DNA of 55,899 nt, taken from the IMG/VR virus record IMGVR_UViG_3300017991_000131, positions 1 through 55,899 of that record, one strand, 5' to 3'. This document shows positions 2-9,311 of this stretch, piece after piece. The position numbers and the translations under genes are program-made. The notes beneath the pieces are model-generated. The model saw only the letters and a list, made by a program, of their open reading frames with translations. It did not search any database and was not told the origin of the DNA. Numbering within the stretch: the stretch's first letter is position 1; every line of letters begins with the position of its first letter. This stretch comes from a virus.

Positions 2-3000
2 GTCGATATTAAGGCTGATGGTCTTTACAGAATCACGTACTGGATGCCAGTTAACTCCAGTGCCGAGGGTGAATATCGAGGTCGAATCAGAAAGAACGAC
101 GCCGTTGTTTTACCCGGCGGCAATATCCATTCTGATGATAGTAACGATACCCTTGTTTTCGGTGCCGACTTTTTGGCGGAGCTATCGGCTGGCGATTACT
201 TAACTTTACAGCTTGAAAAAGACGCGGCCTCTACTGAGACGGCAGAGACTGACATCGTTCTAACTGTCACTAGGTTGAGGGGTGCTGTTGGGGACACTGG
301 ACCCACAGGTCCTACTGGAGCAACTGGTCCTACTGCGGTAGGTCCCACGGGACCTACAGGTGCCACTGGTTCAACGGGACCCACCGGGCCTACAGGATCA
401 ACAGGACCCACCGGATCAACCGGTGTTACCGGATCAACCGGTGTTACCGGATCAACAGGACCCACCGGAGCAACCGGATCGACGGGCAGCACAGGGGCTA
501 CCGGCCCTACCGGACCAACAGGAGCCACGGGCACAGGCAACACCGGACCAACCGGTGCTACTGGAAACACCGGACCGACAGGTCCCACCGGTTCCGCAGG
601 GGCCGGGGCAAACTGCACAACTTATCGGTTTAGTACTTCGACCGGAGATGCCGACCCTGGCAATGGTCGGTTTAGGTTAAATAACGCAACACAGTCTTCG
701 GCAACAGCGGCATATTTCGACAATCTGAATAATGATAGTGTCGATGTAACAGCATTTTTGCTGGCCCTTGGTAAGACAGGGAACACCCTTTATCTTCAAG
801 ATCAAGCTGATGCGTCCCGTATGCATATATTCTCTGTTGACGCGGACGCTACTCAACAGACTGGTTATGTCCGTTTCCCGGCGATTTCAAACATTGATAG
901 CGGTGGCGACCTAGTAAACAACAACAGAAGCGTTGTTTGTCTCGCAGTTGAGGGTGATCCAGGTCCGACAGGAGCGACTGGACCTACCGGAGCCACTGGT
1001 AACACTGGGTCAACTGGTAACACCGGATCGACAGGTGCTACCGGAGCAACAGGATCTACCGGTGCTACCGGCAACACTGGAGCCACAGGTCCAACAGGAC
1101 CAATCGGTGCTACGGGAGGCACTGGCCCGGCAGGAGCCACCGGGTCAACCGGCGCAACAGGTACTACAGGCGCTACTGGGAATACAGGAGCGACGGGATC
1201 TACGGGTTCGACAGGATCGACTGGTGCCACAGGACCTACGGGAGCCACCGGAGCAACAGGTTCCACAGGAGTCACAGGTCCCACCGGAGCCACGGGCGCT
1301 ACCGGAGCAACCGGTCCCACTGGCAACACCGGAGCAACAGGATCTACCGGCGCGATAGGTGCTACGGGATCTACCGGAGCGACAGGCCCTACAGGAGCCA
1401 CCGGAGCCACAGGCGCTACCGGCAATACCGGCAATACCGGACCAACAGGATCGACAGGAGCCACCGGCCCGACCGGTCCTACGGGCGTGGTTGGAGGTTG
1501 GACTCTAGAGTATCAGTACTCCACCGACACAAGTCCACCTCCGTCCAACGGGTTCATCGAGCTAGACAACGCGGTTCCATCGTTAGCTACAAAGGTCTAT
1601 GCCAGTGATGTAGATAAGAACTTGAGTAATGTGGACGCAACGCTGGACGAGATCAGTACCGGCGACCACATCCGGGTATTTCGCACTGATGGAACTCAGG
1701 GTTTTGTTACGTACGAGGTAACAAACCATACGGACAGCGGGGCTTATCATACTTACGATGTCACCTATCTTTCGCACGGGGGAAGTTTTGTAAACAATGG
1801 TGATGTAGGTCTTGGGTTCGCTCCCTTAGGGCCAACTGGTCCTACAGGTCCTACTACTGCGGGTCCGACTGGAGCCACAGGCAACACCGGACCAACCGGT
1901 GCTACGGGTGCAACCGGAGCCACTGGAGCGACCGGAGCAACCGGCAACACAGGACCCACAGGTAACACCGGATCGACAGGACCAACCGGAGCGACAGGTG
2001 CAACCGGAGCAACAGGAGCCACCGGAGCAACAGGAGCGACCGGAGCCACTGGAGCGACCGGAGCAACCGGCAACACAGGACCCACAGGTAACACCGGATC
2101 GACAGGACCTACAGGCGCAACCGGATCAACCGGAGCAACAGGAGCCACCGGAGCAACAGGAGCGACCGGAGCCACGGGCAACACAGGACCCACAGGTAAC
2201 ACCGGATCGACAGGACCTACAGGCGCAACCGGATCAACCGGAGCGACAGGTGCAACCGGAGCAACAGGAGCCACCGGAGCAACAGGAGCGACCGGAGCAA
2301 CAGGAGCGACCGGAGCCACGGGCGCTACCGGTCCCACTGGCAACACCGGAGCAACTGGATCAACCGGAGCGACAGGTGCAACCGGACCAACAGGAGCCAC
2401 CGGCAACACAGGACCCACAGGTAACACCGGATCGACAGGACCTACAGGCGCAACCGGATCAACCGGAGCGACCGGAGCGACAGGTGCAACCGGAGCCACC
2501 GGAGCAACAGGAGCAACAGGAGCGACCGGAGCCACTGGAGCGACCGGAGCAACCGGACCGACTACTCCTGGTCCAACAGGTCCCACGGGCGGAACCGGTC
2601 CCACCGGTCCTACCGGAGCAACGGGACCGACTGGAGCCACAGGGCCGACAGGTCCAGGGGTTATAGACTCACTTGCTGCCGTGTCGGTTCGACGTACTAC
2701 GAACTTCTCTATACCCAACGGGTCGTACGGTGACGTTACATGGGATACGACGGACTTCGAGAATGAGAGTTCGGTTCTAGAACACGACTCGGTAAATACA
2801 GACAGAATTCAAGTCAAAGCCGACGGCGTATATCTCGTAGCCTTTTCGTTATCCATAGACTTTGACGCTGGTGAGGAAGTTATTGACGCTCGCGTTCGGA
2901 TAGACGACTCAACTGTTATTCCCCAAAGCGTAAGGCAGATAAGCGAAGATGACGAAACTAACGCTGTGTCGAATATCGTCCCTGTTTCGTTATCTTCCGG

Positions 3001-3514
3001 TGAGTATCTGACCCTTCAGCTACAGGCGAACGGTGACGGCAATGTGATGATCCCAGAAAGCACCTTCATGGTCGCTAGGCTGGAAGGTGTCGTTGGGGCC
3101 ACTGGTCCGACTGGACCGTCAGGGGGTTTGACAAAGACCGGCTTCACCGAGATTACCTCTGATACAACCACAACCTCGACTACTTTTACCGATTTACTCT
3201 CACTTGCGTATACCAAAGCCAGCGCGGGATCAGATCTAGATATATTCGTGTCGGTGTGCGGGTCCATTGACAACAATGACAGATTCATGCGGTTCCAGTT
3301 GGTCATTGACGGTTCCGCTAAACGCGGTTTTGGGTTACAAGGCAAGAACGCCGAAGGGAATACTGGCGCTCTTGTTTATAAGGCAACGGGACTCGCGTCG
3401 GGGAGTAGAACGATAAAGGTTCAATGGTTGGTAGAGTCTGACACAGGATCAATCCGTCCGGTGACTGTGGCCTACGAGCATTGTTCCATCTTGGTTCACG
3501 AGGTTGATGTCTAA
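2..3514 (+). CDS. Collagen-like tail fibre protein (5' end cut off by the window)
   Basis: The frame is open from the first bases, so the true start is upstream; 1,170 residues are visible. It opens inside a C1q/BclA-type beta-sandwich ([10 protein letters not shown], then DYLTLQLE). Three long Gly-X-Y blocks follow, with Thr dominating the Y position. They are separated by two related globular inserts (about 610-950 and 1495-1825). A second copy of the beta-sandwich follows (about 2660-3110; [17 protein letters not shown]), then a C-terminal head domain (about 3120-3511). Such proteins form trimeric triple-helical fibres; Thr in similar GXT repeats of Bacillus BclA carries O-glycans. The stop overlaps the next start (TAATG), implying translational coupling. 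A fibre or surface-appendage role is inferred; the receptor is unknown. Confidence 0.85.
290..605 (+). repeat. Collagen-like Gly-X-Thr coding repeat, block 1
   Basis: About 100 codons of GPTG/GSTG/GATG triplets. DNA repeats such as accggatcaaccggtgttacc show recent unit duplication. The block encodes a triple-helical stalk segment. Confidence 0.9.
950..1490 (+). repeat. Collagen-like Gly-X-Thr coding repeat, block 2
   Basis: About 180 codons of Gly-X-Y with Thr at nearly every Y position and A, S, N, P or V at X. It is bounded by two related globular inserts of the same protein. Confidence 0.9.
1830..2660 (+). repeat. Collagen-like Gly-X-Thr coding repeat, block 3
   Basis: The longest block, about 275 codons, rich in GAT-GAT-GAT runs. 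A higher-order unit containing [18 protein letters not shown] recurs several times with nearly identical DNA, which suggests expansion by recombination. The copy number is a likely site of length variation or assembly error. Confidence 0.9.
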
Positions 3515-8412: not shown

Positions 8413-9311
8413 AGCTTCTCGTTGTCGAAATCACACCCAATTTCTCTCTGGCTCCTTATCTCGCAGAGAGGCTACAGGGCCACAGCGTCTATCGGGAACA
8501 GCACGTCCAAAACGAATATATGTGGAAGTATGTCAAGACTTTGTGCCCGGACGTTATATTCGTTGATTTCTGCGACGAGAACGCCGTCGTTTTGTCCAAG
8601 AGGCTAGGGGAGCTACCTAAAAAACCAAGACTCATTGTCCGGTTGCACCGTTACGAGGCTCAGGATCAGTATTTAAAGAGGGTTTTTTGGCCTAACGTGT
8701 CGGATCTGATCGTGGTGTCTCCCAAATTCGAGGAGATCGTGGGGGCCAAGATGGCCAAGTTGTGCCCTGAGGTGAGATTACATCTTATCCCGAACGGTGT
8801 TGATCTCACGAAGTTTCAGCTTCAGGACGAGGCGTCTATGGACGACAGCACCGTCGCCTACGTCGGCTATCTGAACAAGAAAAAGGGTCCAGCCCTCTTG
8901 CGGGCGGTAATGGCCTCGTTAGCGGACCGGCAATTTCATGTCGGAGGGACATTCCAGGACGAGGAGATAGAGCTATATTTTCGAGATCTGGAACTGCCTA
9001 ATGTTAGGTATTTCGGGTGGGTGCGGACCGAGGAGTTCTTGAGGGGTAAGCGTTTTATCATATCCACGAGCGTGACTGAGAGCTTCGGCATGGGGGTCGC
9101 GGAAGCTATGGCAATGGGCTTGACTCCTCTCGTCCATGCGTGGCCAGGGGCCGACACCATATGGCCCAGAGAGTGCCTCTGGAACACCTTTGAGGAGTTG
9201 GGGGCCATAAAGCCTAAAGACCCGGCTTGGTGCAGAGAGTGGGTGGAGACCCGCTATTCCATGGGGCGTTGCATCGACAAGTTCGTGAATTTGTTAGAAG
9301 GCCCTCCATAA
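8409..9311 (+). CDS. GT4-like (GT-B fold) glycosyltransferase
   Basis: 300 residues from the ATG at 8409, chosen because it gives an ATGA overlap and begins MKLLVVEITPNFS. The N-terminal Rossmann half contains LIVRLHRYEAQD. The linker HLIPNGVDLTKF is typical of GT4 enzymes. The C-terminal half has VAYVGYLNKKKGPALL and a nucleotide-sugar-binding EX7E motif (E224-SFGMGVA-E232) followed by AMAMGLTPLV. Known role: retaining transfer of a sugar from a nucleotide-sugar. It closes the five-gene modification cassette. The sugar and acceptor are unknown; a fibre, a host glycan or a lipid-linked intermediate are all possible. Confidence 0.85.
   Translation: MKLLVVEITPNFSLAPYLAERLQGHSVYREQHVQNEYMWKYVKTLCPDVIFVDFCDENAVVLSKRLGELPKKPRLIVRLHRYEAQDQYLKRVFWPNVSDLIVVSPKFEEIVGAKMAKLCPEVRLHLIPNGVDLTKFQLQDEASMDDSTVAYVGYLNKKKGPALLRAVMASLADRQFHVGGTFQDEEIELYFRDLELPNVRYFGWVRTEEFLRGKRFIISTSVTESFGMGVAEAMAMGLTPLVHAWPGADTIWPRECLWNTFEELGAIKPKDPAWCREWVETRYSMGRCIDKFVNLLEGPP

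Follow-up and report, generated by a model that had tools for sequence, protein, structure and literature searches.

A Thr-rich collagen-like phage fibre encoded beside a glycosyl-, sulfo- and methyltransferase cassette: a possible self-glycosylated virion fibre

Introduction

The closest described counterpart of the locus reported here is the sgtA–bclA3 gene pair of Clostridioides difficile, in which a 358-aa enzyme, consisting of a glycosyltransferase (GT) and four tetratricopeptide repeats (TPRs), is encoded immediately upstream of bclA3 and adds beta-O-linked N-acetylglucosamine (GlcNAc) to Thr of collagen-repeat peptides in vitro (PMC7157674; this and the other papers are cited from the portions of their text available to us). 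The locus lies in virus record IMGVR_UViG_3300017991_000131, of which the whole stretch of 55,899 bases was analysed and is called the window below. It encodes a Gly-X-Thr collagen-like fibre, followed head to tail by two small genes and by genes for a GT2 glycosyltransferase carrying TPRs (GT2-TPR), a sulfotransferase, two methyltransferases and a GT4 glycosyltransferase; this arrangement had been given in a preliminary description made from the sequence alone, and is confirmed here by open reading frames (ORFs), Pfam matches and gene junctions. As in SgtA–BclA3, a GT-A plus TPR enzyme is encoded beside a Gly-X-Thr collagen gene (PMC7157674). BclA3, however, is a spore protein served by one GT, whereas the window has a phage fibre, an extra GT2 domain, a GT4, and sulfo- and methyltransferases. 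We take glycosylation of Thr in the phage's own fibre to be the best reading of the locus and, judging from sequence, give it a probability of roughly 0.6.

Listeria GmaR likewise joins a GT to a TPR region; it differs in that its acceptor is flagellin, to which it transfers GlcNAc, and in that it doubles as an antirepressor (PMC9638930). Mycobacteriophages carry GTs of their own that modify virion proteins, at the C-termini of the capsid and tail-tube proteins and not at collagen repeats (cited in PMC12619734 and PMC11652166). Mimivirus L230 is a virus enzyme that glycosylates a virus collagen, but the product is hydroxylysine-linked glucose, the enzyme is of another kind and the virus infects amoebae (PMC9614988). 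In the open-access literature, as far as its text was accessible and with subscription papers not covered, we found no paper linking phage Gly-X-Thr fibres to GT2-TPR enzymes, and none on a sulfotransferase together with phage, glycosyltransferase and tail fiber.

Results and discussion

The fibre is dominated by Gly-X-Thr triplets

The window is contained in a phage genome of ~417 kb, as it matches record IMGVR_UViG_3300028840_002431 (G001; 416,539 bases) with 1 mismatch across the 15,170 bases of locus L002, and with 60–80-base probes in the rest all exact. Both ends of G001 fall inside the collagen gene, and the genome is therefore probably circular, with its break in the repeat. The window's part of the fibre gene, truncated by the window start, has Thr at Y in 175 of 189 Gly-X-Y triplets, with Ala (83), Pro (48), Ser (27) and Asn (18) at X. 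The pattern G.T occurs 185 times; 500 shuffles of the protein gave 50 on average and at most 66. Read from the sequence with the 5′ part in G001, the whole fibre extends over ~2,388 aa from a GTG start, and holds ~436 triplets, ~397 of them with Thr (window and G001 pieces counted separately); the assembled length is uncertain because of the repeat. In a second record of 398,071 bases (G002, locus L003), 2,233 aa of the fibre are present, with 385 Thr in 424 triplets.

The GT2-TPR enzyme resembles protein- and peptide-directed glycosyltransferases

The 526-aa GT2-TPR protein has a GT-A domain followed by a TPR domain, as in SgtA-type enzymes, with the TPR part ending earlier than in the other aligned rows. 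Its second GT2 domain gave PDB sequence matches to GmaR (6e-25, the best), SunS (1e-15) and ThuS (1e-13), and weaker ones to other GTs, with chondroitin synthase at 0.05. GmaR glycosylates flagellin, and the PDB titles name SunS and ThuS as glycocin S-glycosyltransferases, so that the three nearest solved relatives are all protein- or peptide-directed. The acceptor of SunS and ThuS is a Cys of the bacteriocin peptide, which differs from the Thr proposed for the phage fibre. A structure model from 23 sequences had a mean predicted local distance difference test (pLDDT) score of 72, with residues 230–500 mostly at 80–97. The predicted fold came closest to SunS and ThuS (Z 22–24), aligned across the GT and helical parts, as in 7msp_A of this type (Z 23.8, root mean square deviation 4.7, 295 aligned); the next match was WrtF (Z 17).

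In architecture, homology and gene neighbourhood, the enzyme agrees with the SgtA-type family. By analogy with SgtA–BclA3, we predict that it acts on the neighbouring fibre, and regard it as a candidate for adding the first sugar to Thr.

Glycosyltransferases accompany Gly-X-Thr collagens in other phages

Virus loci with nine consecutive Gly-X-Thr triplets (at least 120) were compared with control loci having a Gly-X-Lys pattern (at least 120). Those without an in-frame collagen ORF were dropped, 5 of 120 and 1 of 120 respectively; these counts, like all those made with our own hidden Markov models (HMMs) and in the cellular scan below, are among the matches listed. For the Pfam test we used 50 hand-picked long contigs per set (Gly-X-Thr, at least 28 kb each and 3.45 Mb together, with one 28.7-kb contig, L163, skipped in the selection; Gly-X-Lys, at least 29 kb each and 3.08 Mb together). 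The preliminary description had proposed a search for joint occurrence in other genomes, and for GT2 an association was found: GT2 matched in 29/50 Gly-X-Thr records versus 7/50 Gly-X-Lys records (Fisher 8e-6), and above the Pfam cut-off in 26 versus 6 records of 50 each (Fisher 3e-5). GT2 genes also lay close to the collagen ORF. The nearest was at most 5 kb away in 15 of 28 Gly-X-Thr records, with 6.3 expected under random placement (p 0.0002), and at most 10 kb away in 20 of 28, with 11.6 expected (p 0.00045); the 29th GT2-positive record was dropped, having no collagen ORF.

With our own HMMs, a GT of any kind was present at 28/115 Gly-X-Thr and 2/119 Gly-X-Lys loci (Fisher 6e-8), and nine GTs lay within 37 bases of the collagen ORF. 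These HMMs were seeded from collagen-linked GTs and hence are biased, a bias from which the Pfam counts are free. Median GC is not the same in the two sets (0.465 for Gly-X-Thr, 0.412 for Gly-X-Lys), and their hosts may differ too; partial control is given by the in-record distance test and by GC bands, in which the own-HMM counts for Gly-X-Thr versus Gly-X-Lys were 1/5 versus 1/38 below 0.38, 16/50 versus 1/54 at 0.38–0.46, and 11/60 versus 0/27 above 0.46. The association is not produced by near-copies, because the 25 GT2 hits (24 of them in Gly-X-Thr loci) formed 23 clusters at 70% identity and 19 at 50%.

Tallies of neighbouring genes covered 150/167 and 140/167 proteins, and the best 25 of 90 and 25 of 93 matched families; the first set had been chosen for having a GT, and its GT count is by construction. 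A 2-oxoglutarate/Fe (2OG-Fe) oxygenase was considered as the counterpart for non-Thr collagens and rejected (7/50 versus 6/50 records). One 35.9-kb virus record with the Gly-X-Thr pattern (G050, locus L153) has eight 2OG-Fe oxygenase (PF13640) matches at 8070–19209.

The same gene pair occurs in cells

At least 116 bacterial or archaeal loci with seven Gly-X-Thr triplets were scanned, in a search weighted towards low-GC codons and made without a control set; 22/116 had no in-frame collagen ORF, leaving 94. A GT2-TPR homologue was present at 21 of these 94, within 600 bases in 14. In Clostridioides mangenotii, the gene for a 360-aa homologue precedes a frame with 120 Gly-X-Thr by ~55 bases, in the sgtA–bclA3 order. 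It matches the window enzyme with 30% identity (3e-24, an E-value from a small sequence set), and DTGS, DxD and HE are conserved. As for C. difficile SgtA itself, no protein of the published length (358 aa) with 10 Cys was found in the five searched genomes of the genus. The GT2-TPR gene of Pasteurella atlantica (L372) is 455 bases from a 1,344-aa Gly-X-Thr collagen ORF, and its product groups with the GT of phage isolate Tunturi_5 (support 100/94).

Relatives of the enzyme in phages

In a tree of 43 hand-chosen GT2-TPR domain rows, from which three GT2 hits were excluded, the window enzyme and its L003 counterpart form a deep pair of their own, and the fork joining them to the other rows has support 84/80. 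Collagen-linked phage rows fall into several lineages, with 6 label changes, and in phages the pairing of collagen with GT2-TPR thus seems to have been gained, lost or transferred repeatedly.

We inspected 10 of the 43 phage-collection records with a GT2 match, of which at least two (ctf1B273 and ctKR88) look metagenome-derived. In phage DSL-LC01, a GT2-TPR gene lies ~3 kb beyond two Gly-X-Thr collagens. In the isolate Tunturi_5, whose host is Tunturiibacter psychrotolerans X4BP1, the tail fibre (ORF29) contains 95 triplets, with Thr in 58 of them, and the GT2-TPR gene (gp35) is ~3.7 kb away on the opposite strand.

Minor features of these records are also worth noting. In DSL-LC01 (L289:7448-9019), a gene annotated as tryptophan halogenase overlaps the GT2-TPR start, one gene downstream of the two collagens. 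In the 42.6-kb record of ctKR88 (L432:1656-11956), the GT2-TPR relative, two more GT-like genes, methyltransferases and an 'HAS synthase' follow the major capsid gene. For Tunturi_5, a phosphoadenosine phosphosulfate reductase gene, gp62, is listed in the accessible text of its paper (PMC11924767).

Sulfotransferase and methyltransferases

The whole gene order, from the collagen gene through the GT4 gene to the next genes, is the same in G002, where the two small genes likewise separate the collagen gene from GT2-TPR; the proteins compared are 63–83% identical between the two genomes. Wide conservation of the entire cassette was considered and rejected: in pattern-based scans for the sulfotransferase, GT2 and GT4, the intact set appeared only in G001 and G002.

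The preliminary description had named five enzymes, and by profile GT2, the sulfotransferase, methyltransferase 1 and GT4 exceed the curated Pfam cut-offs, with methyltransferase 2 falling below. The two sulfotransferase motifs, which we take to be the 5′-phosphosulfate-binding (5′PSB, KRSGT) and 3′-phosphate-binding (3′PB, RHPVDTLMS) motifs, are retained in G002. No tblastn match to the sulfotransferase was obtained at 1e-5 among 50,697 phage records, and its structure model, built from two sequences, is unusable (pLDDT 39). A supply of 3′-phosphoadenosine 5′-phosphosulfate (PAPS) by the phage itself was rejected, as no adenosine 5′-phosphosulfate (APS) kinase was found in any of three records (G001, G002 and that of locus L006); sulfation would therefore need host PAPS. 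Both methyltransferases have a glycine-rich motif, and no PDB relative of either fixes its substrate. Sulfation would thus be read from one gene kept in two related genomes, and the sulfated, methylated glycan of the preliminary description has found no support beyond gene adjacency in those genomes. The L003 sulfotransferase (L003:9986-11260) is fused to an additional methyltransferase-like domain that the window protein does not have.

A proposed route to a decorated fibre

We propose that the cassette is a virion-decorating module. GT2-TPR would attach the first sugar to Thr of the neighbouring Gly-X-Thr fibre, like SgtA on BclA3 peptides of C. difficile, and would do so inside the infected cell, ahead of trimer locking. 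The other GT2 domain and GT4 would then extend the chain, and the methyltransferases and the sulfotransferase would cap it, with S-adenosylmethionine (SAM), PAPS and sugar nucleotides presumably drawn from the host. This would give the particle a long glycosylated fibre resembling a bottle brush. Two Gp80-family fibre proteins are encoded 3–5 kb downstream, and the first of them points to a fibre region around the cassette; as the major head protein is encoded ~7 kb from the collagen gene start in G001, the fibre may be attached to head or to tail. The sequences themselves show the gene content, an order common to both genomes, the homologies and the statistical tie between Gly-X-Thr collagens and GT2; the acceptor, the sugar, the succession of steps, the sulfate and methyl groups, the supply by the host and the site of the fibre are inferred. 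The whole chain of steps, with sulfate and methyl groups on the fibre glycan, is a tentative proposal to which we give clearly less than even odds.

Weighing the alternatives

That the cassette glycosylates its own fibre had been proposed in the preliminary description, and this has gained support from the controlled co-occurrence, from the homology of GT2-TPR to protein- and peptide-directed enzymes and from the same pair beside bacterial Gly-X-Thr collagens. Several observations nevertheless weigh against it or against its later steps. Bacterial collagens often carry Thr at Y, which is held to stabilize the helix via hydration (PMC8968730). No GT was found by our own HMMs at 87/115 Gly-X-Thr loci, and Pfam gave no GT2 match anywhere in 21/50 Gly-X-Thr records; the idea of more Thr where a GT is present was rejected, Thr richness being no different between Gly-X-Thr loci with and without one. 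Nearly all long window ORFs taken as genes lie on the + strand, and adjacency by itself is therefore weak evidence. The N-terminal GT2 domain is poorly modelled (residues 98–212 mostly below pLDDT 50), and the enzyme is 23–36% identical to those compared, its G002 twin excluded, with an unsettled position in the tree. Eight of the ten inspected phage loci speak against exclusive service to collagen, as they have no collagen-like frame in the stretch covered, at most 6–8 kb per side. As to the later steps, PF00685 matched in 0/50 other Gly-X-Thr phage records (other sulfotransferase families were not searched), methyltransferases near collagens (own HMMs; 3/115 Gly-X-Thr versus 0/119 Gly-X-Lys) gave no significant difference, and in the PDB methyltransferase 1 matches chiefly Hen1-type, tRNA and mRNA-cap enzymes, and no named sugar methyltransferase.

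The collagen-free loci speak for the idea that the cassette glycosylates some other virion protein, be it a neighbouring fibre, capsid or tail protein, and that the collagen gene is a bystander in the same late region. Seven of the eight lie near virion or packaging genes, the eighth record being unannotated. In PaBG, AD1, Lu11, HRDY3 and fHe-Yen9-02, the relative occupies a conserved place a few genes before the head maturation protease; in ctKR88 it is one gene after the major capsid gene, with further GT-like genes and methyltransferases, and in ctf1B273 it is between the terminase and portal genes. The major head protein of G001 is in keeping with the same idea, and glycans on mycobacteriophage capsid and tail tube have been reported (cited in PMC12619734). 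We nonetheless consider this explanation unlikely, since the contrast between Gly-X-Thr and Gly-X-Lys records, together with proximity within records, ties GT2 to Thr-rich collagens specifically. The preliminary description had held that routine occurrence of the cassette far from any collagen-like gene would count against fibre glycosylation, and for its key GT these loci go part of the way. The GT2-TPR family looks like a general group of virion-protein glycosyltransferases, for which collagen is a preferred target and not the sole one.

Less probable again is that the cassette alters host surface glycans, to bring about superinfection exclusion or an altered receptor, and owes its place in a variable fibre region to chance. 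Polysaccharide loci commonly contain GT2, GT4, methyl- and sulfotransferases, and WrtF, the fourth-best match of the predicted fold, is a fucosyltransferase solved with oligosaccharide acceptors. Fibre-region GTs of pelagiphages were interpreted as host-surface modifiers by their authors (PMC7029224), and the accessible text of pelagiphage and freshwater actinophage papers interprets GTs as host-surface or DNA modifiers. Against this, the scan of the cassette proteins recognised no flippase, polymerase or lipid-carrier GT, the enzymes of known structure nearest to GT2-TPR (GmaR, SunS and ThuS) act on proteins or peptides, and in both genomes the cassette is set among fibre genes. A role in DNA hypermodification or metabolic capture unconnected to the virion is very improbable: phage GTs are reported to glucosylate DNA (stated in PMC12619734), but this GT2 bears a TPR region, is of the SunS/GmaR kind and is placed between fibre genes, and profile searches found no base-modification family among the cassette proteins.

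Returning to Thr glycosylation of the fibre, we suggest, with reservations that make the full statement a minority bet, that Thr-rich collagen fibres and SgtA-like GTs have come together, apparently repeatedly, in several tailed-phage lineages, which thereby build a glycosylated, mucin-like coat of their own, and that the jumbo phages of the window may also methylate and sulfate the glycan, giving a charged, virus-coded proteoglycan on the phage particle. A general link of this kind would turn a number of phage GTs into testable virion-glycosylation genes, for which the isolate Tunturi_5 is available material. If true, one enzyme family would serve spore surfaces, flagella, bacteriocins and phage fibres, which raises the question of why phage fibres should be sheathed in sugar (stability, hydration, adhesion, or evasion of lectins or proteases).

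Layout of the window and minor observations

The features are listed in Table 1. Successive junctions, from the collagen gene to the GT4 gene, are −1, −1, +18, −4, −8, +1 and −4, followed by a 100-base gap. The 'two glycosyltransferases' of that description are two proteins, which contain three GT domains (GT2 twice and GT4). The first listed start of the GT4 gene is 8334.

Table 1. Features of the window and the evidence for their assignment.
Feature	Coordinates	Strand	Evidence
3′ part of Gly-X-Thr collagen-like fibre gene (5′ part in G001)	2..3514	+	PF01391 9.5e-70
195-aa protein, presumed virion/fibre component	3514..4101	+	83% identity to G002 counterpart
340-aa protein, presumed virion/fibre component	4101..5123	+	N-terminal matches to virus contigs
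Glycosyltransferase, two GT2 domains and C-terminal TPR	5142..6722	+	PF00535 6e-29; DTGS, DADE, HE
Sulfotransferase	6719..7330	+	PF00685 25.6 bits, cut-off 22; KRSGT, RHPVDTLMS
SAM-dependent methyltransferase 1	7323..7910	+	PF13649 29.9 bits, cut-off 27; DLGCGDG
Probable SAM-dependent methyltransferase 2	7912..8412	+	DVGAGYG; PF13489 18.8 bits, below cut-off 27
GT4-type glycosyltransferase, 300 aa	8409..9311	+	Pfam above cut-off; ATG 8409 start most likely
Gp80-family fibre protein	12043..12444	+	PF23140 5e-34
Second Gp80-family fibre protein	14311..14694	+	PF23140 3e-42

Profile searches gave no convincing family match for the 195-aa protein. The N-terminal 59–112 aa of the 340-aa protein match three further virus contigs, and a fourth weakly.

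Locus L006, another phage fragment, has a GT2 relative (29% identity) and no collagen, together with GT4s, GT2s and methyltransferase-like genes. At L006:2928-14559, a 1,176-aa fibre-like protein without collagen repeats is followed by two GT4-type genes and a double-GT2 protein, and the same stretch holds methyltransferase-, hydrolase- and epimerase-like genes (assigned by visual reading of the sequence).

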